Below are positions 26,401-50,725 of a stretch of DNA of 64,000 nt, in pieces. Made by a program: the position numbers and the translations under genes. Within the stretch, counting starts at the first letter, position 1. Every line of letters begins with the position of its first letter. Source of the DNA: Echinarachnius parma (lineage: Eukaryota; Echinodermata; Echinoidea; Clypeasteroida; Echinarachniidae); NCBI GenBank assembly GCA_037951105.1, contig JBAMJV010003769.1, forward strand, positions 55,671 to 119,670, read 5' to 3'. Under the pieces are notes generated by a model. That model was not told the DNA's origin, ran no database searches, and worked only from the letters and a program-made list of their open reading frames with translations.

Positions 26401-29400
26401 AGTGCCCTTATTTGGTAACCTTTATACTTTTATGATTGCAATTTGAAGAGCTTGACATGTGTCTCGAATATGAGAGTGGTCGATCTAATAATACATACAT
26501 TTTGCTGGGGTTAGTCATGTTATGCCGAAACGCTAGCAAGATTTAGGACCAATATATATTGAAGTTATTAGCAAGAAGAAGTAACAACAGCAACACATCA
26601 TCGAAGCATTAAGGTTTTGATTGCATATTTATATTTTCTTTTTTTTGGTAAGCGATATCAAATCTGCGTGCACAGTGTTTATTAAAAGGTTCAACTAATT
26701 AGTAATACATGTATTACACTGTGTGGAAAATATTCCTCACCTTTTTGTTTAAATAGACTGTACTGTAATAATATTTATCTTTTCTTTAATTGTATTATTT
26801 GTTGTGTATACCTTGATATGTGGTTTTTGTAGGTTGTAATATATTTTGTTTATTTAATTTAGTATGTAAAGCGCATAGATAGTCATTTTGATTATTATGC
26901 GCTATATATTGATATTATTATTATTATTAAACATTTTGTATGCGTTAATATTTTTACTCCAATGGTCATTATGAACTAGGAATTCATTCATGTTCTTTAT
27001 CATGACATTAACAATAAATTACACATGTGGAATATACTACATTATTTACGTTTGAATGTTGGCCTTTTTCAAGAAGTATTTCATAAAACCTGTTGTGCAG
27101 AGAACATCTTCCCAGGAAAACCTCTTTGAGAGAGCTTGGTGTGCAGATAATCTCGGCTAAACACTGTGACACCAGCAGTTGACAGTCTCTCGTCTCAACT
27201 ATCACATTAGTCTGGAGTAATGGAGGGAGTAAACAGTCAAATGTTATTAAAGTGAGGCATGTAAAGTGTCTAACTCCACGAAAAATACTTGGAGCTTCCT
27301 CGCTTCTCTTCTGCCTTGTTGTTTAGCTTATGGTAAGAGAATAATAAAATAGGGTTAGATTTTGTCAAATGTCCCTTTGGTATGAAGATAATTATCATTG
27401 AAAATCGTCATTTGAAAAGAGTTGATCAACGCCTTATAATTGTCCTAGGCGAAAACGTCCCGTCAGCACGCGTGAGAACCATCGATATACCGATGGTGAG
27501 AACATTCCGGAGATTGAACTTTGAGCCGAGCCAGTGCAAATTCCATGAATTCTGTACTCTGCAAACATACATTGGTGCGAATATCTCAAACGGATCACTG
27601 ATTACTGTGACAAATGTATGGCAGACCATCAGTATTCGGTGATAAAATATGAACTCAATATTCGTTTTTTTCACTAGGCAAACAGTGTTTGTTTTCTTTC
27701 AAACTTTCACAAATCTTTCAATTGTATTTTACAATGATATTGATATAGGGTTGAAGTCTCAAATGTCATTTTGTGCAATATCTGACACTTTACAGGTTTC
27801 ACTTTAAAAGTGTGTGCCCTCTATACCTAAACTCAACTATCCCTTTAAGTGTTAAAAAGTAGTAAAATATAAGCCGTATCATTTTACATATTTAATGCCC
27901 ATATCGTGTTTGTTCACATTTGGTTAATATCATTAAACTAAAACAAAAATAAATAAATAGTTAAAGAATGTGATGCACATTTTTGAAATAATCAATGACG
28001 TGCATTTCATTCAGTGAACGAAATCAATGTGTTGACATGTCTACCAAGCACGCAGTCATCACATCTGAATGGGCTCAAATACCATGTAATGTATAATTGA
28101 TCACCTGTATTTCAAAATGCATTTGAAATTTAAATACAGGAATGTTTACAACTGTCAATGATAACAAAAACGGAAAGTACATTCCTAAACTGGTGTAACA
28201 TAATCACTCTTAAAACATATTCTTTAACTTGATTGAATGAATATGCATGACTTACCAAACTTACGATGCCCGATGCTAGAAACATATGGCCAACTAGTGT
28301 ATGTGCTGTTCTCTTCTCATCTACTATTAACTTGTTAATTTTAGACAAGATATTGGTTTTCACGACTTCAGCTGCGTCCGGGTCCTGGCTTTCAAATGCA
28401 ACATCAATGATTAGATCAGTATTTTCTTGCTGAAATCGACTCATCCTTGTGATGACATCCTTCGCGACCTCTTTGCTAAGTGCCGTACAAAAGTACAGCA
28501 GATATCTAAACTCTTCCATTTTTGTCAGCACTTCCTGTTCAATCACTCGGATGTATTCCTTCTTATTTGTGCGAAACAGCTCAGACAAGTGCATTCCAGC
28601 CATGTACTCATGAAAGAGTTTGTGCGGGAAGGACACGGTATGCATCACTCGGTCCTGGGTAGTGTGCCATTGACTTTTCGGGATGAGTTTCTTCTCTGTT
28701 GTCAGAACCCCCATCTTACATGCACGTAGCATTGCATTCTGACAGTGCTCGAAGTCTTCTTCTTTGAAAGTCATCTTCTTTCTCAGAAGGCTCTCAAAGG
28801 CAATTTTAGCTATCGGTTTCATCGGCTCATCGATTTCAATGCTGAGCTTCTTTCGTGCGGGGTCATCTAAACTCTCATGACTCTTCATCATAAAATGTTC
28901 TTTGAGAAAGAGGAACATTTCCTTAAATAATTGGGAATATGTTTGTAATTCTTGGATTTGTCTACATTTGTCATCGTCTAGCTCCCTCCACATGAGACAC
29001 AACATAGCCGCGTATATAGGAAATGGTGCCATGTTCTCTGCGACTATGTCATTCTCCTGTACGAACTGGATCAGACTGCTCGCCTTGATTTTATCATCCT
29101 TGAAATACTTTTTGATGTATGCTGATAGATTTTCTTTAGTGAAGCCAACAATAGATATGAATGTGTATACTTTTCCAACCTTCACATCAAATCTAATTTG
29201 GTCTGCCATCCACGGACGAGATGTTACCATAGCCAGGCATGTTTTTAACTGTTCACAGCGAATCGTTTTAACAATATGTGTGACACTTGTTTGGCTATTG
29301 CTAGCATGATCATCTCTTCTGATTAATTGATCTGTAATGCACTCCGACTGCCATATATTTTCTCCATACTCATCAAGTCCATCATAGGCAATGAAAACCT

Positions 29401-32400
29401 TATCTGGAGAAGAAATTATAAAATGGTCCAGTTGGCTGGCTTGAACTGGATTATCGTTCCCAATGAGACGTTTAGCTATTTGACCCATGTTGGAGTTTTC
29501 AGCTTCTCGCAGCGGAACAATAATGACCATTTTATTCTGGAAGTGGATCCCATTTACCCAGTCCCATGCTATCTTCGCACAGAACGTGGTCTTGCCTGCT
29601 CCAGCTTCTCCCTGCACCATCAGTCGTCTTGGTAGCGCTCCATTAATTTTTATGTTGAAAAGTTCGCTGTAATCCAAGTCTTTCCAATGTTGGCCATCCT
29701 TCTCCAGCATCTTCAGATTGGTGTACATTTCTTCAAATCCTTGGTATGAGTAAGGGTCTAGGGGATCTTTCTTAATCTTACACAAATTAGTTCGATAGTA
29801 CTCCTTCAAATCCTGGCAACACGCATTAAACTGTTTCTCTGAGAGAGTTGATGCTGATACCGACGTAGATAGCTGAACTGTTGAGAAAGACATCAATTAT
29901 TGATGTTAAAAATAGGAAAAGGTATTTGTATTAATCATTAGACAACAATACAGCGTTCGTATAATAAACACATAGCCAATGCACCACTATAAATATCGCT
30001 AAATGAAGGCCATAGTACCGGTAACCATGGTACCTTTCTATAAGACAAATGCGAAATGGATCATATTCCTTTGACATGAGTCTACCTACTCCAGGAAGTA
30101 TTAAATGGTAGTTTGGTAGTGTATGATCGGAGGACATGAATAAGTACACAAATAAAACACAATATAACTTAGAAAGATCGGTGAATTACTCACCATCTTG
30201 TTCTCTTCTTGTCACTTCCTGAGGTACTGGTGATGCCGGGGGAAGATCTGTGATGCAAATTGTACAATCCTTTTGATTCACATGTTTTTTTGCTTGAACT
30301 GTTGGAATAAAAATACTGAAAACACTTAAATAGAATCTTAATAAGTTGTTTAACGTCAACTAAATTATTTAAGACAGACTGTAATCATATTTTGCAACGA
30401 ACAAGTTGCTATAATGATTAGTTCATATGTATGAGTCTTAGTATTATTATGTTAGAGGGGTAATTTGTGTTGACATGTTTAACAAAAGGTGTAAAACCAT
30501 ATAACATGTGTATAATTGTTGTGATCTGATATTTGTGATGTGTGAACGTGTCATAGTGCAGGAATGATATATTCCCGAGTACTGATCAAAAACGCAAGGT
30601 AATATGCATTACCTTATTGCACTGACTTAGTTTACAGTTTAAAAACTCCACTAGAGACTTTCATATCCGACCCTACAATCACACATAATTATTTGTATAA
30701 TAATATAGGAATTTTTTAAAACCGATGCCCCATGTTTCTATTGGTAATACGATTACAAAGTGGTATATTATAAATGCTAGAGGTCTTAGCATTTGTTGTG
30801 GATTTGGGAAATGATGCATCTACCGTGTGTCTCAAAAAAACTATACACTTTAGAAATGGCTGCCAAATTTTAAAAAACGTATAATTCTGGGAGGAAAGGT
30901 TTTATTTGTATGGAAAGCTCATAAACTCAACTTTCATATGACACTAACAAGTCCGAAAATAATTCATGCTTGGGTGAGCACTGTACTCACTTTTGTAAAG
31001 GGTATGGAAATTAGGTTGCGCAGGAATGTGTAAGAGGAAAGTCCTTTGGAGCTTACGGAATTGAGGATGATATGACAAATTTATGATCAATTGTGATGAG
31101 TTTGGGTTTGCTGAGTGAAATTTGTGGTTTATGGGATTAACATTTTATGCATGAGTGAACAGGAATTGCATTTATTATTGTAGCATTGTAACTTTCCCTG
31201 GTAGACTCAGTGGTGTGTTCATGGGAGTCAGGACGGGGTGATGGTACATGGTGTAGGGGAGGTGAAATTTCTCTCTCTCTATCTGGGTGTGCTTGTGCAT
31301 ATCTTGACAATTCATATTCGTTGGTCTCCACTCCAGGGAAAGTTACAATGCTACAATAAAAACATGCAATTCCTGTTCACTCATGCATACAAGTTTGGTT
31401 CAATAAACCATAAAATTCACTCAGCAAACCCAAACTGATCGCAATTGATCATGAATTTATCATATCACCCTCAATTGTGTAAGCTCCAAAAGACGTTATA
31501 CCTCTCCAAAGGTGAGCAGTGCTCACCCAAGCATGAATTATTTTCCCCCAGAATCATATATTTTTTTATTCGGCAGCCATTTCAAAAGTGTATAGTTTTT
31601 CTTTAGACACACGGTATAGTATACACTACTCACACAAAGTAAGTACCCCCTAGCATTTGTTCATATATCTCAACAAGTGTTTCACCGATTTTGATCATTC
31701 AAACGGTTTTCATCAACAACAAAATGAATTTTCTAAAACAAAGTGCAAAGAAAAGTTGCACTTTCAGTTTTATGTGGCATAGTGGGTACATTTTGTATGC
31801 GAGTAAACATCTTTATTGAATATTACCCGACACACAAATCTATTATGTAATCCATTACTACTGCTGCATTGTTCTTAGTGAAACGATTTTTCAAAAGCAT
31901 GCATTTTTCTAAAACAATAGGCCTTTCAATATGAAATTGTTGTAGATTATAATGACTGAAGTCATGTCCTGTTTTCATCTTTATTGTAGTTGGCCTAATT
32001 CATTAATCTGTTATATAATTCAGTATTTCTTCTGCATTGTTCACAGTGGAACCAGTTTTCAAAAGCTTACACGTGTACAAAATGTTCCCAGTATGCCACA
32101 TAAAAGTAAAAGTGCAGCTTTTTTTTGTGCACTTTGTTTCATCAAATTCATTTTTTGATGAGGAAAACTTAATGCTATGGCAACCATTCACCATTCACAT
32201 TGTGCGTAGAGAAAATTGCGCATCCATTACCGTATGAATGATCAAAATCGGTGAGATACTTTTTGAGATATATGAACAAAATGCTGGGGGGGGGGGGGGG
32301 TAAAGAAGTATCATGATAGCACATACATGGTGTTATTGTTGTTGGTGTGTTATTTTTATTTTATTTTTATTTTTTGGAAGGGGGGAATACTAAAGAAAAT

Positions 32401-35400
32401 ATAATGATATATAAGTTAAACAAGGTAAAAGAATACACACCTATACACTACCCCTCCCACCCCAATCCCCAACCTTCCATCAATGGTAGCAAGTTTATTT
32501 GTTATGGGATGGTTGACTATAGGATGACTGCTTGATGTTTTAAAGAATCTTACAATTAGTTTATTTTAATTGAAGATTAACCATTTATTATAAATGTATA
32601 TATTTTTTTAATCATTAAACATAACTTAAAGGGATGCCTGTAGAGTGTCTTACTCCACGAAAATTACTTGGAGCTTCCTCATTTCTCTTCTACCGTGTTG
32701 TTTAGCTGATGGTAAGAGAAGATAAACTAGGGTTCGATTTTGTCAAATGCCCCTTTAGTTTGACGATATCTATCATTCAGCTCAAAAGCGTTAATGAACG
32801 GTAATAAATCTCCGTTGTAAAAGCTGACGCATATTTTCGCTATTTTAACCAGGAAAGCAGTGTTACTTTTCAATGAAACTTTCACACACTAATTGGACAT
32901 ATCTTACAATGATTTTGATACAGGATTGAAGTCTCAAGTGTCATTTTGGGCAATATCTGACACTTTACAGGTGCACCTTTAAGATACTTAATAAAAAGCT
33001 TTTAATGTTGATACTAAGTATTTGATAGTTCTTCTTCTTGCGTATGAGGCAGCGCAGCTTCTACGCGACATCACGCAAGTTTTGCAGCCAATTAATGGTG
33101 TCGGGGTCCAAGTTGGTTAAATCTGGGTTTTGGTGGCCAGGTGGGCGAAGGATTGGGCACTCCTCAATGATGTGGGAAGCAGTCTGCTCGGGTGCTCCAC
33201 ATGTACAAGCCGGAGAAGGTCTGAGTCCCCAGCGCACAGTGGGCCAGGTGTGAGCCAAAGTGTGCCAAAATAGTGACTTGGTCATGGAAATGAAATTGCC
33301 TTTTTTCATGTTTTAAGCAAAGATTACAACCTGTAGAACATCCCCGAACAATATTTATTCTCGATATTTATTCTAAGTGGGTCATTTGTCTTCACAAAGT
33401 CCAGAAATGTTGATTTTAGGGAACACATTGTGTTAAATGCAATATTGGGTTTTTTTCATGATATTTGCCAAACGGCTTGCTTAATCGACTTAAAATTTTA
33501 AATGCTTGTTTTATAATAGTTATTCTAAGTAATCATACATTTTAAAGCCAAACTATTAGTTATGTCGGAATTTATGTTTAGTAGAATCAAACAAATAATG
33601 GGAGAAAATCGATGTTTTTTTTCATGCGCAAACATGGTCAACATTGCTGTCGATTGCTGCGCTAAAAGTATCATGATTGCCTTCCTTATAATGTATGCTT
33701 TACTTTGATACCAAATTTGTCTGCCACCATCTGCCACCTTATGAGTAAGAAGCGGTTTTCCAACCACATGTTCGCCCTTTTTTTGCCGAAATCGCCCTTT
33801 TTTGCGAAAGAGCGAGCCGTGCGCTCATTCCAACGAACGTTGAGGGCGTAAACACGTTCGTTGGGATCATACCATTGAAGTACTATATCACGTTAGTACT
33901 TCAATGGCTCATACATAGGCAAACTACATAAGATACAGTTGTACGCTTTTTTCTTTGTTGACACAAGTAGCATCTATAAGAAGTCCTCTGACATTTTGTC
34001 TAAGATGATGGGACAAGCATATGGATTGTATGAAAGTAGTCAATGGTAGAAGAGAGCTCAAAAATGGAAAGAGAGATAGCGAAAGATAGAAAGAGGTGGA
34101 GAAAGAGTGAGGGGAGAGAGAGAGGGAGAGAGAAAAAAACAAACATTATTTTAATGACGTCATAGACATTTGGAAAGTCCAGAAACCCCTTATATGTTAA
34201 TAATAATAATAATTATTATTATTATAAGTTCCACTAATCAGTGTAATTTAAATCTGTCTATACGTTACAATGAATATATCCCTTGTCCAATCAGAAAACA
34301 GTATTTTGATGACGTCAGAGAAATTTGTAAATGCTCCAATTGTGTTTCTTAGGTCCATAAACCCCTTATAAGTTCCACAAATCAGTGTAATATGAAATTG
34401 TCTATGTGTTACAATGAATATTTGCCTTGTCCAATCAGAAAACAGTATTTTGATGACGTCAGATAAATTTGTAAATGCTCCAATTGTGTTTCTTAGGTAC
34501 AGAAACCCCTTATAAGTTCCACTAATCAGTGTAATATGAATCTGTCTATGTGTTACAATGAGTATTTGCCTTGTCCAATCAGAAAACAGTATTTTGATGA
34601 CGTCAGAGAAATTTGAAAATGCTCCAACTGTGTTTCTTAGGTCCAGAAACCCCTTATAAGTTGTACTAATCAGTGTAATATGAATCTGTCTATGTGTAAC
34701 AATGAATATTTGCCTTGTCCAATCAGAAAACAGTACTTTGATGACGTCAGAGAAATTTGAAAATGCGCCAACTGTGTTTCTTAGGTCCAGAAACCCCTTA
34801 TAAGTTGCACTAATCAGTGTAATCTGAACCTGTCTATGTGTTACAATGAATATTTGCCTTGTCCAATCAGAGAACAGTATTTTGATGACGTCACACGGAT
34901 TTGAAAATACTCCCATCGAATTATATGGGTCTGAAAACCCTTAGTTCCTTTAAACTGGAACTTCAGTAACCTTCTTCAATGAGTAATTAATTTTGGCACA
35001 CTTTGAAACGGTTCTGGCCCACTGTGCAGCGGTGCATGCTGCCGTAGAACCTGCCGACCCCTGTTCGGAGCCTGTTGAGGGTGACCCAGTCCTTTCGGGG
35101 TAGATCCGCGCCTGGTGGTAGTTTTGTGTTTGGGGTTACTGTGAATTGAGGGGGTCTGGGGGTCTCCTGCCAGCTGTTCTTCCATGCGGTGAGGGTATTG
35201 TGGATGCCTTCCCGCAAGGTGTCAGCATGGCGACTGAACGGTCTGCGTGACCGTAGACGTTGGCGGACTGGTTGTGTGTTCTGGGTGGTACGGTGTAGAG
35301 GGTGTGTGCGGTCTTGGAGGGCCTTGTTGACTAGCTGTTGGGTGTAGTGTTCTCTGCGGAGGGCGGGGGGTGCGATACCAGCGAGCACTGGTAAGAGGTC

Positions 35401-36610
35401 AGTTGGTGTGGGTCTGAGGCATCCTGTGATGATCCTCATGGTTTCGTTTAGGGTGGTGTCCAATTTGGGCGTGTGTGAGATAGTTAGTTTACACTAGGTT
35501 GATATTACAATGATAATTTTGTTGTTATTCCTCATATTTTGATAACAATCATAACAATCACTCTTATTTATATTTGTATTGGAATAATATTATGTATATT
35601 TTCTTTCAATTAGTATGTAATATTTCATGTGTTTTTACCTTTTAAATTTACTTGTAATTTTGCCTTTTGGCTACACATAGTTGAATAAAAAACCTTGAAT
35701 TGAATTAAATTGATCAATAGTAAGTTTAAACACATTTCAGGTTTGAGGGAATTTATCTAGACTGCCCAAAAGCTGTTGATAACAACATTTATCATGCCCA
35801 ACAAGGGTTTTAAGTAATATGTAGAAAGTGCACCTCTGACAACCAGCTTGTCTATAAGCAGCTTCTCTGCCAGATCATTCAGCTCTACTTCCCTCAGCGC
35901 CTCAGCCAGAATATCTCTCTTGTCTCCTTCTTCTCTGGTATTCCATGTCATCAACACTTCAATAAGGGCACCTCTTACGTCGTTCAGATGTTTGACTCTG
36001 ATCTGATTCAGCTCAGCATACTGGACTCCGAGGTTGATTCCTATATCTTCGTAGTAGCGCGGATCAATCATCCGTGATAAAAGAGCAAGTTCCTTCTCTT
36101 GCAGGACACTGTGCCAAAATAGGAAACGTACATAACATGTTATTAATGCGTTCCTCATAATATTATTATAATTATAATAATTGTGAACAGATATTGAATG
36201 TTTTAATCACAGTTCTAAAAATAATATTCCAGTTGTCACGATGCTAAAGGATCTGTTGCCGTTCCACTCATCCCCTTTCCATTAAGAAAACAACTAATCA
36301 TGATTATGAGCTTCATGACACATGTAACGATGTAACGATTAATACGTTTCCATAATCAACACGGCATCCTGTATTATTTATCTTTAAAAGACGAAGATCG
36401 ATTTCTCGAAATGTAAACTTATGAGGGGCACTATATTAGGTAATCTTTTATTCATATTAACATAGTACGATTAGCTAACCTGGTCTGAATATCTGCACCT
36501 TTGGTCTTGGTCTTGGTCTTAGGACCAGGGTTAGGTTCTATGTCTCCTGCCTCCATGAGGTCAAGTGTGGCGTTGAACCACTTCCAGGGGCATTCACCCT
36601 GTCTTATCAT
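15931..36610 (-). CDS. Multi-exon NLR gene: 2A-like leader, Death, NACHT, LRRs, C-terminal tail (about 1,039 aa)
   Basis: Predicted cytosolic pattern-recognition receptor of the NLR (NACHT-LRR) family. Ten exons, listed separately, join as 36610-36480, 36108-35834, 30298-30194, 29877-28256, 27211-27050, 23870-23718, 20885-20685, 19618-19454, 17426-17326 and 16135-15931. Every donor begins GT and every acceptor ends AG, and the phases match at all nine junctions (2, 1, 1, 0, 0, 0, 0, 0, 2). The summed length is 3,120 nt, exactly 1,040 codons including the stop. Predicted residues: 2A motif 23-30, Death fold about 48-130, Walker A 260-268, Walker B 331-340, LRR exons 712-938, C-terminal module 939-1039. 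Family knowledge: the Death domain recruits adaptors, NACHT is an ATP-driven oligomerisation switch, and LRRs sense ligand or autoinhibit. No in-frame stop or frameshift was found. The 5' end is uncertain, because the first exon could be internal (see the upstream membrane-protein frame). Exon borders are read by eye, without transcript data. Confidence 0.82.
16248..16690 (+). mobile_element. MITE family 1 (copy c, divergent, 3' truncated)
   Basis: Starts TTAAAGAAGTAGTTCAGTTT and contains AAATCGGCTTAGAGGCGGCTG and the TTGCGCCCTG motif. The right inverted end is not found. A related divergent copy is split between about 41,330 and 47,200. It lies in the intron between NLR exons 10 and 9. Confidence 0.55.
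16746..17277 (+). mobile_element. TTAA-flanked MITE, family 2 (copy a)
   Basis: TTAA at both ends, with inverted termini around AGTGATGCATGTAAAGTGTC and GACACTTTACCTGTATCACT. Internal landmarks are CTTATGGTAAGAGAAG and CACTAGGTAAACAGTGTTCG. Sister copies lie at 27,247, 32,626 and 60,314. It lies in the intron between NLR exons 10 and 9. Confidence 0.8.
17326..17426 (-). CDS. NLR exon 9: unrecognised module
   Basis: A 101-nt exon with a strong acceptor (ctgtgactttcttgacag) and a donor GGCAG|GTAGGA. It enters in phase 0, matching exon 8, and leaves in phase 2, matching exon 10. It encodes about 33 residues that are charged and helical in outlook (…FLQAVRKKNG at the end). No family is recognised. 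It is called because both splice sites are good and both phases fit. Confidence 0.6.
17690..18600. repeat. Degenerate tandem repeat, about 100-125 bp unit
   Basis: About eight diverged units, each with a CCTGTTTATAGCGG-like segment and a GGTGGTCACTATACACAGG-like segment in regular alternation. It lies in the intron between NLR exons 9 and 8. Confidence 0.7.
18850..19437. mobile_element. G-run element, second copy
   Basis: Inverse ends AGTGGCGGACATAGG / TGTCCGCCACTG. Inside are three to four repeats of an ATTTTCGAAGCCGAGACC-type segment separated by runs of 15-24 G, plus a T-run and a C-run near the right end. It is homologous to 7,856-8,438. It lies directly beside NLR exon 8, and its Gly/Pro-rich frames are not coding. 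Confidence 0.7.
19454..19618 (-). CDS. NLR exon 8: LRR 4
   Basis: A 165-nt exon, phase 0/0, acceptor tactaatacaatcacag, donor AGCAAG|GTAAAA. It encodes 55 residues with the clearest LRR of the set (VRYLKLHVITL, then LARWLCCLPDLTHLELKD). It ends AASSK like its sisters. It lies just next to a G-run element whose long Pro/Gly frames overlap the downstream intron and are not coding. Confidence 0.78.
19866..19908. repeat. Poly-C tract
   Basis: About 25-30 C with one or two interruptions, in the intron upstream of NLR exon 8. Confidence 0.85.
20685..20885 (-). CDS. NLR exon 7: LRR 3 with acidic insertion
   Basis: A 201-nt exon, phase 0/0, acceptor ggtatcatacctag, donor AGCAAG|GTAAAG. The LRR core is LATWLCSLSNLNQLMMWDM. 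Compared with the sister exons it carries about 16 extra residues rich in Thr, Ser, Glu and Asp before the helix (around TNSSETEPSDVES). The 5' border is set by homology: the distance from acceptor to the conserved H/N-D-x-T-L motif is the same as in exon 6. The insertion would form a loop on the LRR surface and may mark a rapidly evolving position. Confidence 0.68.
20890..22180. other. Intron 6 sequence without recognised features
   Basis: Part of the intron between NLR exons 7 and 6. A segment at 21,190-21,760 (GGGGTATTCCGGGCCTG start, AATTCCGCTTTAA end) has the look of another TTAA/AATTCC-bounded non-autonomous element, but no second copy exists here to confirm it. Confidence 0.3.
22190..22478. 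repeat. Two adjacent inverted repeats
   Basis: First, arms at about 22,194-22,268 and 22,284-22,357 share AACAAAAGATAAGGTC / GACCTTATCTTTTGTT and GTGGGTCTTCGG. Second, 22,365-22,475 folds on CATAATCTTCTTATTCATTC and AACAAAATACAT with its inverse. Both lie in the intron between exons 7 and 6. Confidence 0.7.
22555..23128 (-). mobile_element. MITE family 1 (copy d)
   Basis: TTAA at 22,555 and 23,125, with inverted ends AGGGATAGTTGAGTTCTGG and CTCAACTATCCCT. It carries the inverse of the family core (AGCCGTTTCTGAACCGATT). It lies in the intron between exons 7 and 6. Confidence 0.75.
23370..23434. repeat. (TG)n microsatellite
   Basis: About 29 uninterrupted TG units. Confidence 0.95.
23718..23870 (-). 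CDS. NLR exon 6: LRR 2
   Basis: A 153-nt exon, phase 0/0, acceptor attcaatcccag, donor AGCAAG|GTAACA. It encodes 51 residues with the LRR core LLSWLCCLPNLTRLVLF. Its last codons (AASSK-like; here EASSK) and its splice borders are shared with exons 7 and 8. This points to exon duplication within the gene. Confidence 0.75.
24400..25940. mobile_element. Element with inverted CGCTAGCG-type ends inside MITE copy e
   Basis: The left end has GCGCTAGCGTTCTAGGTCCT; the right end has the inverse AGGACCTACAACGCTATCGC and TTCGCGCTAG. Just inside the left end a 76-bp unit is repeated exactly twice (24,413-24,564). Confidence 0.55.
24742..25856. mobile_element. G-run element, innermost of the nest
   Basis: Inverse ends CCAGGGGTGTCGATCC and GGATCGACACCCCTGG. 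G-runs lie near 24,897-24,915 and C/G runs near 25,765-25,830. No coding sequence recognised; Pro/Gly frames come from the homopolymers. Confidence 0.65.
26110..27049. other. Intron 5 sequence without recognised features
   Basis: A/T-rich, with only an ATT-type short run at about 26,910-26,930. Confidence 0.45.
27050..27211 (-). CDS. NLR exon 5: LRR 1
   Basis: A 162-nt exon, phase 0 on both sides. The acceptor is cattactccag and the donor is AAC|GTAAAT. It encodes 54 residues with an RNase-inhibitor-type leucine-rich pattern: a short beta segment, then CLAEIICTPSSLKEVFLGRC. This repeat type forms the ligand-facing arc in NLRs. It follows the NACHT exon directly in the splice model. Confidence 0.72.
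27247..27807 (+). mobile_element. MITE family 2 (copy b)
   Basis: TTAA at 27,247 and 27,804, with termini AGTGAGGCATGTAAAGTGTC and GACACTTTACAGGTTTCACT. It begins only 36 bp upstream of the splice acceptor of NLR exon 5, in the intron to exon 4. Confidence 0.8.
28256..29877 (-). CDS. NLR exon 4: NACHT ATPase module
   Basis: One 1.6-kb exon encodes about 540 residues. The Walker A is GEAGAGKTT, the Walker B is VFIAYDGLDE, and the sensor segment is LAMVTSRPW; these define a NACHT NTPase. Downstream come winged-helix and helical regions, including PFPIYAAMLCLMW and FPHKLFHEYMAGMHL, the latter a hallmark of the helical domain before the LRRs in echinoderm NLRs. The acceptor is tctttctcaacag (phase 1). 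Two in-frame donors lie 9 nt apart, ATC|GTAAGT (exon end 28265) and TTG|GTAAGT (exon end 28256), both phase 0. The exon is uninterrupted and all nucleotide-binding motifs are intact, so the ATPase is probably functional. Confidence 0.93.
29880..30190. other. NLR intron 3
   Basis: Short intron between exons 3 and 4, with no further features. Confidence 0.6.
30194..30298 (-). CDS. NLR exon 3: short linker
   Basis: This 105-nt exon lies between a good acceptor (tttttattccaacag) and a near-consensus donor (GATG|GTGAGT). Phase 1 on both sides makes it symmetric and skippable without a frameshift. It encodes 35 residues, basic at the start, then two closely spaced cysteines (DCTICITDLPP) and a Pro/Ser stretch. 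It links the Death domain to the NACHT region. No domain is recognised; the cysteine pair is too short for a zinc finger by itself. Support comes from the paired splice signals and from frame continuity. Confidence 0.7.
30300..30820. other. Part of NLR intron 2 without recognised features
   Basis: A/T-rich, no repeats recognised. Confidence 0.45.
30821..31616. mobile_element. Foldback element with TA ends
   Basis: Starts TACCGTGTGTCTCAAAAAAA and ends with the inverse TTAGACACACGGTA. The arms of about 340-380 bp share GCTTGGGTGAGCACTG / AGTGCTCACCCAAGC and GCATGAGTGAACAGGAATTG. TA at the borders suggests a mariner-like non-autonomous element. It lies in NLR intron 2. Confidence 0.7.
31630..32315. 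mobile_element. Second foldback element, abutting the first
   Basis: The left end GTACCCCCTAGCATTTGTTC is mirrored at the right by GAACAAAATGCTGGGGGG with an expanded G-run. Inner arms share TCACCGATTTTGATCATTC / GAATGATCAAAATCGGTGA. It lies in NLR intron 2. Confidence 0.7.
32626..32982 (+). mobile_element. MITE family 2 (copy c, internally shortened)
   Basis: TTAA at 32,626 and 32,979, with ends AGGGATGCCTGTAGAGTGTC and GACACTTTACAGGTGCACCT. It is about 200 bp shorter than the sister copies. Confidence 0.75.
33235..35026. mobile_element. 1.8-kb DNA transposon with CACAGTGGGCC ends and 5-bp duplication
   Basis: Perfect inverted ends CACAGTGGGCC / GGCCCACTGTG are followed by imperfect inverse sequence (CAAAGTGTGCCAAAAT). 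The flanks repeat CAGCG on both sides (33,230-33,234 and 35,027-35,031). Removing the element and one CAGCG restores the interrupted reading frame, which proves the borders. No transposase is seen inside, so it is non-autonomous. The superfamily is not assigned. Confidence 0.8.
34170..34916. repeat. 144-bp tandem repeat (five units) with CCAAT and CRE-like motifs
   Basis: Units begin near 34,206, 34,350, 34,494, 34,638 and 34,782 (TTAGGTCCAGAAACCCCTTA). Each has CCAATCAG and TTGATGACGTCAG. Because 144 is divisible by three, one minus-strand frame stays open as 48-residue repeats. It is probably not a protein (see rejected items). It sits inside the 1.8-kb transposon. Confidence 0.85.
35500..35755. 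other. Part of NLR intron 2
   Basis: A/T-rich sequence ending in TTGAATTGAATTAAATTG, possibly the leftover tail of a plus-strand retroelement. Confidence 0.3.
35834..36108 (-). CDS. NLR exon 2: Death-fold domain
   Basis: The exon opens after a pyrimidine-rich acceptor (cctattttggcacag) and encodes about 92 residues. These form a helical Death-fold domain with the pattern LLSRMIDPRYYEDIGINLGV, then EL..I, then a helix with ALIEVLMTWN, then ILAEALREVELNDLAEKLL. The W-N/T after helix 4 and the L..AL..... .L..LAE.L ending are typical of Death domains in invertebrate NLRs. Such domains make homotypic contacts with signalling adaptors or caspases. The incoming phase is 2 (AG|T gives Ser). The donor AGAG|GTGCAC is not a strong consensus, but it is the one that keeps the frame with the next exon. 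Confidence 0.8.
36480..36610 (-). CDS. NLR exon 1: leader with 2A-like ribosome-skipping motif
   Basis: Starting at the only in-frame ATG (36610; A at -3), this exon encodes a 43-residue segment. Residues 23-30 are DIEPNPGP, preceded by Gly, which matches the 2A consensus D-x-E-x-N-P-G-P. By the known mechanism the ribosome fails to form the final Gly-Pro bond, releasing a 29-residue peptide and restarting with the proline that opens the receptor. After the motif come a Lys/Thr repeat (KTKTKTK) and then a donor CAG|GTTAG in phase 2. The leader contains Trp, Phe and Leu but no long hydrophobic core, so it is not an obvious signal peptide. The open frame continues upstream of the ATG for about 22 codons, with possible acceptors at 36599 (phase 0) and after ATGCAG, so this may be an internal exon. 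2A-like sequences are known in sea-urchin NLR genes and in some non-LTR retrotransposons. No reverse transcriptase or endonuclease follows here. Confidence 0.72.
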
Positions 36611-36979
36611 GCTCCTGCATGACGTCAAAGACGACTTCTCAGAATAAATTGCCTTTTCGAGATAAACAGGGAACACAACATATTAAATATACTGATAGTT
36701 AATTCCACACTTTAAATGTCATTTGACCCCATTATAGAAAAGATTGCCTGGTAATCACGACTTATATAAACTAAAATTAAAAGGTATCTTGCATTCCATT
36801 AATCAAGTTGATATAACATGTATATTTAGTGAATTGAAATGTTTACTAACTCACAAACTGTAAATATTTTTGTGGTAGTGCTACTAATGTAAGTACTTAA
36901 CGACAGAGCTCTGTTCAAATAGTTGTAAATAAATAATTACCCACATCAGGCATTGTCAGTATTTGAAAGACAGACTACA

Positions 36980-38692
36980 TTACATTCTAAAAAAAATGTA
37001 TTTGTCTATTAAGACGGCGTTCAATTTGTGGATTTGTACCTGCATGGTAAGCCCGAAGCAAGATGGCAGCTTGGATGACGAGTTGTCGGATGATGCAGCA
37101 GCTGTCTGGATGGTTAATATTCTAGAGTTGAGTTCTGAAGCTAAGGCCATTGTCGATTGGTTGGATGTGGACGTGGATGTGCAAGAGTTGTATGGTGCAG
37201 ACGTTGACTGGATGTTCAAGTTCGTAGAGCTAAGTTCCGAATGCAAGTCAACTCCGAGTTGGTTACTAGTGGTTAACAATATGCGGAAGTTGTACTGCGT
37301 ACCCCTTGTATCTTCGACTGTTGCGGTTGTCAATAATGCCATGGAGGGTTTCTGACCGACGGTTATTGCTGATCTGGATATGCATGGTTCTCGGTGTATA
37401 CCATGTTTTGAATTGTACGAATGAGATGTTGACATAGAAGCACTTGGTTGGTTGTCCATGTTGCCTACCGATTGGTTGGACTTTGACGATAGCGACGGCC
37501 GATGTGACATTAATAAGTTCGCATCAAGTCCTGAAGATGTTTCAACGAGGGGTTTGGACGTGAAAGGTGCCACGCATGGGTCCTCATATAGCGAAGATGT
37601 TGACAGGGCACACACGTCTTGATCAGTTCTACCAACTGGTTTTGTGGACTGCCGTGTTGAAAGACGAAATGTTAATAAATGTGTGCCGGTCTGTGAGTGC
37701 AGTCCTGATGGTATGTTGACAGTGGATTTGTTGGAACTCTTAAACTTGTAAACGTTGTCATAATACGCTAGTATTGCCTTTTTGTGCAAGACTGTACGAT
37801 TACGTTTTGAACGCATGACAACTGTGTTTTGGTAGGATGAGGAAGTAACGCAGGAGTAGTCGTACACTGAACATTCTGACGAAGTGTATAAAGTAGGTGT
37901 TGACCGGTTAGTCAAAACTGCACATTTGAGGTCTACAAGCTTGTCAACTTCTGATGACGTCATACTGTATAATTGCTGACCAATGTTGCTTGTCGAATGG
38001 TAAGATAGAGAATCTGTAGTATGGAGGCATAGTCCGTTGCTCATGGAGCGTGCTGGTTGGTTGTACAGGGATAGTGTCAACGAGGCGCATGGTCGTATGC
38101 CAGTGTTGATTAGTGATTTATTGGATTGTGTTGCTGAAGAAAGGAAGGTTGATGTATTGCTCGTTGGTTCGGACTGTGGTGTTGAGATCGGGTACAGGTA
38201 GTCATGATCCGCACTGCTGGTTTGTTGGTAGAAATGCAGTAGTGTATTTCGGAATATATCTTGATCTGTTGGATTTAAGTTTTCATGGAGACAACAAAGT
38301 GCCTGGAGAGTGGAAACTCTTTCGAACCAGTTCGGTGTTTTATGCATCACACCTGAGCCATTTTCAAACGCAGTGATTTGAGTTGACTGATCTTCGCGTG
38401 ACGGGTGTGATGGTGGATACTGATTTCCATATTGACTTGACAGTGGCACTAAATGTGCAACAATGAAAGTACTTAATATAAATAGTGTTACGAGGAGGAT
38501 ATTCATTCCATTACGTGATCCTATCGATGTCGAATTTTCCCCATTCTGCGCTGGAGGCTTGGCAGTTTTTCTTTTCCTCCTGTATCTTTTCTTGCAATCA
38601 TCCCCTTTCCTTATTTGTATCTTGTCATCGCTCGGGGGTCGGGGAAGGAATCTCCCGATCCTTATCCTCCACTCACACAGAGAAACCGACAT
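36980..38692 (-). CDS. Ser/Thr-rich type II membrane protein (570-codon open frame; separate gene or 5' exon of the NLR)
   Basis: A long uninterrupted frame from ATG at 38692. Residues 1-60 are strongly basic (KKRYRRKRKTAKPP region). They are followed by one hydrophobic segment at about 64-84 (MNILLVTLFILSTFIVAHLV), then a roughly 480-residue tail rich in Ser/Thr with many N-x-S/T sequons (NTS, NKS, NRS, NRT, NQS, NSS). A cytosolic basic end before a single signal anchor predicts type II topology with a glycosylated, mucin-like outer part. Near the end are two imperfect repeats (ELSSTNLNIQ and ELNSRILTIQ). A donor-like CAG|GTACAA at 37040 (phase 0) would remove the last 19 codons. It fits in phase with an acceptor at 36599 in the 2A exon. 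Family unknown. The start context is poor. Confidence 0.6.
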   Translation of the reverse strand: MSVSLCEWRIRIGRFLPRPPSDDKIQIRKGDDCKKRYRRKRKTAKPPAQNGENSTSIGSRNGMNILLVTLFILSTFIVAHLVPLSSQYGNQYPPSHPSREDQSTQITAFENGSGVMHKTPNWFERVSTLQALCCLHENLNPTDQDIFRNTLLHFYQQTSSADHDYLYPISTPQSEPTSNTSTFLSSATQSNKSLINTGIRPCASLTLSLYNQPARSMSNGLCLHTTDSLSYHSTSNIGQQLYSMTSSEVDKLVDLKCAVLTNRSTPTLYTSSECSVYDYSCVTSSSYQNTVVMRSKRNRTVLHKKAILAYYDNVYKFKSSNKSTVNIPSGLHSQTGTHLLTFRLSTRQSTKPVGRTDQDVCALSTSSLYEDPCVAPFTSKPLVETSSGLDANLLMSHRPSLSSKSNQSVGNMDNQPSASMSTSHSYNSKHGIHREPCISRSAITVGQKPSMALLTTATVEDTRGTQYNFRILLTTSNQLGVDLHSELSSTNLNIQSTSAPYNSCTSTSTSNQSTMALASELNSRILTIQTAAASSDNSSSKLPSCFGLTMQVQIHKLNAVLIDKYIFFRM

Positions 38693-48758: not shown

Positions 48759-49737
48759 GCCACCAATAATTAATTGAACAAAGAAAACCTCCCAACCTGC
48801 ACAATGGTTATAAAAGCACATGTACATCTTTTAGAAAATAGGGCCTCCCGCTCCCTGCGGGCATGATCAGTCCTCTTTTAGCCACAGTTTTTGCACAAAA
48901 GGCCACGTGCAAAGAAACTTCAAAGCATCAAAGTCCATCACCATTCAGAACGAGTGGGACGGTTCAAGTGTACCGGTGATGAGGTGTTGGTAAAAGGGGG
49001 ACAGTGGGGCCTGCGCCCCCTTCCCCAATAATATTTCAACAAAACTATCCCAACAAATATAAGGGGACAATGTTAAAAACGTAATAAAACTTAAAGAGTA
49101 CCCCAAACTATTTTGTCCCAAACCCCTGAAAGAACCAGAAACCAGAAAAAATGAAAACAACAACAACAAAAAAACAATTCTCCCACGCTACGCACTCGAT
49201 TTCATTGGTCTCCATGTTGTCAATGCTCTCCCGTTGTGTTAACGATATACTCAAGTAGTTCTATAGTATGCCATGAAGGTTGAATTGTGATAATTTAATA
49301 ACCACTATCAATCCCCGTTTTCAGAAAAGAAGCAAGTCTGTAAACATAATACATCACAGCATAACTTGTATTACTTACAATTACTACAAATTTGCAAGGC
49401 AAAGAAACAAACTGAATAACAATACAGACATAATTAAAACAAACTCATGAAACACAAATGTTGTTTATGACTTTATATTCTGAAACAAACGCATTTTAGG
49501 TTTGTTCATATTTCCTTCAATTTTTATTTTTCAGAAAAATTTATTGGATGAAAGCATATCATTTTGTTTCAAACTAGTTTATTTTCAAATGAATACAATA
49601 TTTTAATATACCTGGGTTCATGTTTCCAAGCTGAAGGCAGTACAAGTTCTCGAACTACAACTCCGAACATTATATTTGATTTAAGTTTCAGGTCACGTTG
49701 TTTAATGAAATTGTTTATACTATTTTAATAAAAGTAC

Positions 49738-50725
49738 TTCACCAATTAATGCTTCAGTTCCCCAGGGATCAGTACTCGGTCCACTATTGTTCTCCGTTTA
49801 CATTGATGATATTGGAGACAACTGTGAAAATACCCAGTACCTATATGCGGATGACTCCACCCTTTTCTGTGAAATCCGATCCCCTGACAATGCTGAGGCA
49901 ACATCAGCAAGCCTAAACAGAGACCTGGATAGACTATGGACTTGGGCTCACAAGTGGAAAGTAACATTCGAGCCAAGCAGGTGTAACGCCCTGATAATCT
50001 CTCGGAAGAGAACTCCAACAAGGACAGACCTACATTTCGGGAACTCCACACTAACAGAAGTAGATGAGCTTGTCATCCTGGGAGTCACTGTGGACAGGAA
50101 ACTTACTTGGACAAAACATATCACCAACTTAACAGCAAGAGCTGGACAAAAACTAGGAGCGTTAAGGAGGGTAGCTACCAAGCTTGATGTCGCAGGAAAA
50201 AGCTACCATCTACAAGTCCCAAATTCGCAGCGTAATGGAGTATGCTTCGCTATGCTGGATGAATGCATCTACCACTGCACTTGGACTGCTGGACTCTATC
50301 CAGAGGAAAGCTCTTCGAGTCATTGGCGTGAATGAAGAAGACGCACAATCACAACTTAACATCCCATCTCTTCAACACCGAAGACGTGTGGCTGCTGCAA
50401 CAGTACTCTACAAGATGCAGACCAACCTTTGTCCTTCAGACATGAAGTCCATGCTCCCTCAACCATACGTGATAAGAAGATCAACACGAACCAGCAGGGC
50501 AATGCCGAGACATGCCCTTACAATACCCACCTCTAGAACCTACTCAACAGGCAGAAGCTTTCTCCACATAGCAGTCCCTCTTTGGAACAACCTACCAGAG
50601 GGCACAGTTGGAGAGATCAACGAATCTGGTGTTCAATCTTTCAAGCGACGAGTACATCAGCACCTGTTATTTATTGATGGTGTCACATAGACGAGGCACT
50701 ATTTAATTTAATTTAATTTAACTTG
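49738..50725 (+). pseudogene. Non-LTR retrotransposon reverse transcriptase fragment, one frameshift
   Basis: The plus-strand frame has SVPQGSVLGPLLFSVYIDDI, then the catalytic YADDSTLF at about 49,840, then the thumb region. At about 50,190-50,210 the frame shifts by +1 and continues to a stop at 50,690 (QIRSVMEYASLCW, LFIDGVT). The N-terminal RT and endonuclease are missing (5' truncation). The tail is TTTAATTTAATTTAA at about 50,702. It is the best-preserved RT piece in the window. Confidence 0.85.

Follow-up and report, generated by a model that had tools for sequence, protein, structure and literature searches.

In the parts of the literature considered here, 2A recoding appears as a mainly viral mechanism that few cellular genes use (PMC12846837). 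Among the closest known systems are the SpNLR2As of the sea urchin Strongylocentrotus purpuratus, some of which are placed "within the N-terminal region" of NLR immune receptors, with no upstream protein described in the parts of that report covered (Roulston et al. 2016, PMC4981915); the same parts record 2As with the same core motif in APE-type retrotransposons of this species that lack long terminal repeats (non-LTR) (PMC4981915). Here we analyze a 64-kb stretch of the Echinarachnius parma genome (assembly GCA_037951105.1, contig JBAMJV010003769.1, positions 55,671 to 119,670; hereafter the window), which encodes a 2A-like exon ahead of a receptor with Death and NACHT domains. We consider it likely that this motif is an internal StopGo (2A) junction that splits the product of one open reading frame (ORF) into a Ser/Thr-rich protein anchored in the membrane and a Death-NACHT receptor in the cytosol.

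The 2A exon and the two predicted products

All features of the gene lie on the minus strand of the window. As the first-pass annotation had observed, an exon read at 36610-36480 encodes MIRQGECPWKWFNATLDLMEAGDIEPNPGPKTKTKTKGADIQT, with GDIEPNPGP-KTKTKTK in its product and a phase-2 donor at 36480; the 2A core DIEPNPGP occupies 36521..36544, with the predicted skip between its last Gly and Pro. A motif search across the six frames of the window recovers DxExNPGP only once, and the pattern arises by chance in 0 of 200 simulated 64-kb sequences (analytic expectation about 2e-4). The claimed in-frame join to a Death-fold exon also holds: the donor (CAG/GTTAGC after 36480, phase 2) leads into the exon at 35834..36108 (phase 2 in, phase 1 out), and the open frame around it matches Pfam Death at E=1.5e-8. 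From there a putative 54-nt linker exon (30194..30247, phase 1-1, drawn from splice signals and the open frame) connects in phase 1 to the NACHT exon at 28256..29877 (Pfam NACHT E=9.2e-18; donor possibly at 28265 instead), the chain being in frame and stop-free, and the Pfam matches and reading frame of this receptor model place Death before NACHT. Splice signals and matches in the same genome indicate that the 2A exon probably starts at 36652 rather than at Met 36610, thereby spanning 36480..36652 (173 nt, AIYSEKSSLTSCRSMIRQGECPWKWFNATLDLMEAGDIEPNPGPKTKTKTKGADIQT, phase-2 donor); its acceptor, AAG/GCA, is compatible in phase 0 with an upstream exon, and the matching boundary is readable in paralogs. 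An alternative donor for the 2A exon at 36499 was rejected as out of frame.

The predicted upstream exon (exon 1) covers 551 codons from Met 38692 at 37040..38692. Its frame, which begins MSVSLCEWRIRIGRF and ends 0.3 kb upstream of the 2A exon, is stop-free for 576 codons (570 from its first Met); the longest such run in 100 simulated 64-kb sequences was 228 codons. The donor at 37040 (CAG/GTACAA) is moderate, with 6 of 9 consensus letters; it and the acceptor at 36652 are both phase 0, and the joined frame has no stop, so that together with the paralog boundaries these features point to a phase-0 intron at 36653..37039 through which exon 1 would be spliced to the 2A exon. The N-terminus of exon 1 carries a WRxRIGxF (WR) module, with its core EWRIRIGRF at 38648..38674. 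An alignment of the window with 17 of the 18 database proteins that have this module (A1; P0127 left out) shows 12 invariant columns over its 18 rows, and a phmmer search with the first 60 residues against 135 collected proteins places the 18 WR proteins on top (E 0.0005-0.011; the next at E 2.4). A predicted transmembrane segment, ILLVTLFILSTFIVAHLVP, follows at 38444..38500, preceded by a basic stretch, with a hydropathy of 2.39 over 19 residues. The upstream protein has 26% Ser+Thr and 10 N-x-S/T sites, and its only Pfam match is a sub-threshold one to WxL (E=0.0028). The AlphaFold model of exon 1 has a mean predicted local distance difference test score of 44, with 396 of 551 residues below 50, a low confidence that fits disorder and is no proof of it.

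Exon 1, the 2A exon and the receptor join into a stop-free model of 1313 residues, in which the Gly-Pro bond expected to be skipped lies immediately before residue 595; on this exon model about 550 codons of coding exon precede the 2A, which the annotation had placed at the front of the receptor. The first predicted product, of about 594 residues, would comprise the WR module, the basic stretch, a single transmembrane segment, a long Ser/Thr-rich part, probably disordered, and a 2A tail ending ...DIEPNPG; the second would be an NLR starting P-KTKTKTK, followed by Death and NACHT. With a first transmembrane segment after a basic stretch, the predicted membrane topology is type II, the long outer part being rich in Ser and Thr. 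If this topology holds, skipping, which we predict to occur at most ribosome passages, would release the NLR into the cytosol, and failure to skip would leave it in a fusion that is either tethered to the endoplasmic reticulum membrane or translocated across it; a cytosolic receptor would then require skipping of the Gly-Pro bond.

The WR-2A-NLR order in echinoids and across the genome

A search with the receptor model returned 219 relatives, and the gene is called echinoid-like here because the named ones among the 120 listed are sea urchins (Strongylocentrotus, Lytechinus and Diadema); the 120 also include unnamed genomic ORFs that match the model at up to 50%. DxExNPGP is present in 55 of these 120, starting at residues 16-247, which bears out the annotation's statement that such motifs occur in the related sea-urchin NLRs; given this count and the report of Roulston et al., a 2A in an echinoid NLR is therefore not itself new. 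Five of the 120 carry the motif beyond residue 100, three of them beginning MPVALSEWRVRIGTF or close variants and the others (P0039 and P0055) not. With residues 1-130 of P0119 as query, 18 matches were obtained at E<=10 (among 118 candidates, P0119 itself included), all of them WR proteins; 14 of these have a 2A, at residues 113-727, and 11 of the 14 also have a NACHT domain in precomputed Pfam annotations. The order of WR start, 2A and NLR part in these echinoid proteins is that of the window. BLAST alignments with these proteins are confined to short N-terminal stretches (61% over 18 residues with P0114 and 36% over 45 with P0119). In the literature searched, where coverage of subscription papers is limited, we found no paper that deals with an upstream protein of the WR type in NLR genes with a 2A.

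The same exon order recurs throughout the animal's own genome (1.2 Gb in 14,790 contigs), in which the match lists for the 2A exon and the first exon are lower bounds. The 2A exon has at least 150 matches, itself included (150 of 235 candidates scored), of which 147 are open and 3 have an internal stop; the first exon has at least 100 matched stretches, with internal stops in none; and the Death exon has at least 150 matches including itself (150 of 538 candidates scored). All 67 first-exon matches aligned from query residue 1 onward, among them the window's own and its identical copy, were compared with the 150 listed 2A places. For 64 of the 67, a 2A exon follows downstream within 15 kb in the same orientation (median gap among listed pairs 2.1 kb), and none has one upstream or on the opposite strand. 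This linkage, with which the echinoid homologs agree, favors the annotation's alternative that the receptor is made together with an upstream protein. Pairing with the 60 best Death matches finds a Death exon within 10 kb downstream of 21 of the 22 best 2A exons, with none upstream or on the opposite strand; the cut at 22 was set after viewing the list, and over the best 50 2A exons the count is still 21. More distant 2A exons have Death exons that are likewise more distant and fall outside the best 60. A longer, partly hand-picked Death list gives 27 of 50 downstream, 1 upstream and none on the opposite strand. Contig C7151 carries a copy with 100% identity in exons 1 and 2 and 99% in the Death exon, perhaps the second haplotype of the window's gene; these counts are therefore of places, not of proven separate genes.

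We fetched about 5 kb around each of the 20 best 2A exons other than the window's, omitting one duplicate place on contig C6709. The 2A exon is present in all 20, a WR start is visible in 14, and in 2 more the long frame runs off the fetched piece; the first-exon matches add those two and two others farther upstream, for a WR exon in 18 of 20. Death matches are found in 18 of the 20 loci, two of them very short. All 14 paralogous first exons seen whole, among them the identical copy of the window's (L059), have a phase-0 CAG/GT 5-30 codons ahead of the stop and a transmembrane segment that begins at residues 60-67 with a hydropathy of 1.88-2.59.

One of these places, on contig C3768 at 30.9-36.0 kb (L066) and about 60 kb from the window's gene, repeats the series of WR exon, 2A exon and Death exon, all oriented alike, and probably forms a cluster with it. 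On the minus strand of contig C175, two loci (L004 and L005) have a WR exon (MPVSLCDWRVRIGRF and MPVSMCDWRARIGRF, respectively) and a 2A exon, and then an exon resembling a different type of Death fold (Pfam Death E=0.0083 for L004, under the cut-off, and no match for L005). On the minus strand of contig C1985, two further loci (L026 and L099) have a WR-type start that has diverged (ELWRGRIGLF) and a 2A that is hydrophobic (LRVALFVLLLCCGDVESNPGP), and a NACHT exon (Pfam E=8.6e-18) lies several kb downstream. If these last, with their putative one-gene structure, are read together, the WR-2A arrangement may serve other NLR subfamilies too.

Selection on the 2A core and competing readings

Purifying selection was assessed on 40 of the 150 listed 2A places (L059-L098), namely the 20 fetched loci and 20 hand-picked further down the list, extracted with the pattern AGD[VI][EQ]xNPGP, which cost none of the 40. 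D[VI]ExNPGP is kept in 39, and the remaining one has DIQ, with Gln for Glu. Over the 39 distinct DNA sequences the ratio of non-synonymous to synonymous differences per site (pN/pS) is 0.042 for the core (p11-14 and p16-19), as against 1.84 at p15, a single codon, and 0.57 for p10 and upstream; paralog pairs are not independent in these values, and the similarity search prefers conserved copies. The contrast between p15 and the rest of the same core is hard to account for without purifying selection. At p15, Pro is among the favored residues of viral 2As in the parts of the source covered (PMC12846837). The window's 2A has L5, L7, A10, G11 and the core as in its relatives, and differs from the S. 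purpuratus type at D6 and E9.

Several observations weigh against an internal junction between two such products. Codon usage, in a test that is uninformative here, does not favor the exon-1 frame over the other five frames. No WR exon was found at two of the 20 fetched loci (L070 and L073), and no Death match in the fetched pieces of two others (L074 and L078). Four of the 18 WR proteins have no 2A: P0133 and P0134 are genomic ORFs whose ends, by protein comparison, lie just beyond the point at which P0130 continues into the 2A part and look like a phase-0 donor boundary, P0132 is a short model, and P0127 is a full gene model with the 2A part replaced. The S. purpuratus WR members have no transmembrane segment by the threshold used, which makes the topology the least certain step of the mechanism; hydrophobic segments are present in 7 of 10 Lytechinus WR members, differently placed. 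By analogy with SpNLR2A6, Asp at p6 and Glu at p9 also count against efficient skipping: the mutants L14D and R11A, which by our own mapping correspond to p6 and p9, have substantially reduced recoding in the parts of the report covered (PMC4981915).

These two residues are the ground for the best-surviving alternative, which we judge unlikely: that the exon is genuine but the 2A of this copy is weak or dead, with a fused membrane-NLR protein as the main product. Its core is nevertheless intact, and among 39 paralogs, the window's copy included, Asp is found at p6 in 5 and Glu at p9 in 7, so that both are usual within the family, and the paralogs with these residues retain the core. Moreover, viral motif 4, the printed signature of which, as we read it, likewise has Asp-Leu at p6-p7, was almost fully active in the example tested, in the parts of the source covered (PMC12846837).

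A little less probable still is an N-terminal leader, with translation starting at Met 36610 and a 30-residue 2A leader skipped or kept to yield two forms of the receptor, on the pattern of the signal-sequence 2As published for sea urchins. Met 36610 is in frame and has A at -3, an alternative promoter ahead of it is possible, and a class of short-2A proteins exists: in 51 of the 135 collected proteins the 2A ends within the first 80 residues and there is no WR module. The window's Death exon scores 79.3 bits with the best of these versus 65.9 with the best WR-2A protein. In a NACHT tree (72 of 127 rows usable, quick method, midpoint root) the window, on a long branch (1.13), groups with unnamed genomic ORFs (support 89) on the side of the WR-2A proteins (100 by the Shimodaira-Hasegawa-like approximate likelihood ratio test); as to class kinship, the tree places it on the WR-2A side and the Death-exon scores point to the short-2A class. 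Against a leader, the 2A is preceded by the 551-codon exon, whose start is conserved and whose donor is phase 0, a pairing repeated at the 64 of 67 listed places. The best 10-residue mean hydropathy of the window's 2A peptide is just 0.47, compared with 0.78-1.60 in 14 WR-type 2As and 1.96-3.30 in 53 2A proteins without the WR module; by hydropathy it is not signal-peptide-like, and the annotation's proposal of a receptor made with and without a leader peptide does not fit it.

That a non-LTR retrotransposon near the Death exon left the motif as a relic, outside the gene, which the annotation had named as the finding that would overturn it, is very improbable: the D(I/V/M)ExNPGP DNA pattern has 438 exact genome matches (none to the reversed control), 2A motifs, very common in this genome, lie in NLR exons and in some long ORFs that do not look like NLRs (28 loci viewed) and the next intron has a retroelement-like tail, but the matches to the exon are overwhelmingly open and linked in order to the first exon and the Death exon, the open frames that hold exons 1 and 2 show no reverse-transcriptase match, and the core is under purifying selection and therefore not a stray retrotransposon piece. 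A retrotransposon origin had been tried with the 2A leader as query, which shared words with 20 candidates (restricted to 0.55-1.75 times the length of the 694-residue model), none at E<=10; the own-genome linkage then contradicted the idea.

Other sequence was noted in the window and beyond. The intron between Death and NACHT holds, on the minus strand at 33061-35493, pieces that by eye resemble retroelement C-termini and are interrupted by a 144-bp tandem array (34222-34913); a zf-RVT match to the piece at 33061-33312 is below threshold (E=0.061), and that at 34987-35493 has none. A reverse-transcriptase fragment lies on the plus strand at 49709-50332 (RVT_1 E=2.5e-11). On contig C218, a single ORF of more than 600 codons (L007/L008), which by eye resembles a retroelement, holds two 2A motifs at a distance of 95 codons. 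Beyond the NACHT exon, the stretches at 27211-27050 and near 19.8 kb resemble leucine-rich repeats by eye and have no Pfam match at E<=0.01; the former (27050..27211, minus strand, an open frame with splice signals) is a tentative candidate for the next exon. Rfam and tRNA scans of the window gave no matches, and a tblastn search for phage gave chance matches only.

Comparison with known systems

Returning to an internal StopGo junction as the likely reading, we lean toward the view that StopGo serves in echinoids as a cellular polyprotein device at the scale of a gene family, with dozens of genes in this genome each using a single ORF to make a WR protein, rich in Ser/Thr and membrane-anchored, together with a cytosolic Death-NACHT receptor, in linked amounts, and with the efficiency of skipping setting the membrane-tethered share. 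A large animal immune-gene family keeps the 2A core under purifying selection at a two-protein junction; if the above view is true, the linked production of a membrane protein and a possible partner receptor would be a testable feature of echinoderm immunity, and the family would offer dozens of naturally occurring cellular 2As, perhaps differing in strength.

P2A, a picornavirus 2A between two products of a polyprotein, carries Leu at p7 and Gly at p11 and has the core D(V/I)ExNPGP. The picornavirus 2A/StopGo (F2A) resembles the window's motif in sitting between two products of a polyprotein, in its D(V/I)ExNPGP core and in having Leu at p7 and Gly at p11, as described in the parts of the source covered (PMC12846837). 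Unlike F2A and P2A, the motif of the window belongs to a cellular immune gene in a large paralogous family and has the upstream context LDLMEA; unlike the 2As of APE-type retrotransposons, it is linked to Death and NACHT exons, with no reverse transcriptase. The SpNLR2As of S. purpuratus share with it a 2A core directly ahead of the Death-NACHT part; in the parts of the report covered, those studied are 26-residue hydrophobic N-terminal signal sequences (PMC4981915), whereas that of the window is non-hydrophobic and, on the exon model, internal and preceded by about 550 codons of another protein. The WR-module echinoid NLRs in databases (P0114, P0116, P0121, P0129 and others) have the WRxRIGxF start, the 2A and the NLR part in that order. 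The window fits the WR-module 2A NLR group as defined here: it has the WRxRIGxF start, a long exon with a phase-0 donor, the 2A exon and the Death exon, with predicted splicing, and differs from the database proteins in a less Leu-rich 2A context.

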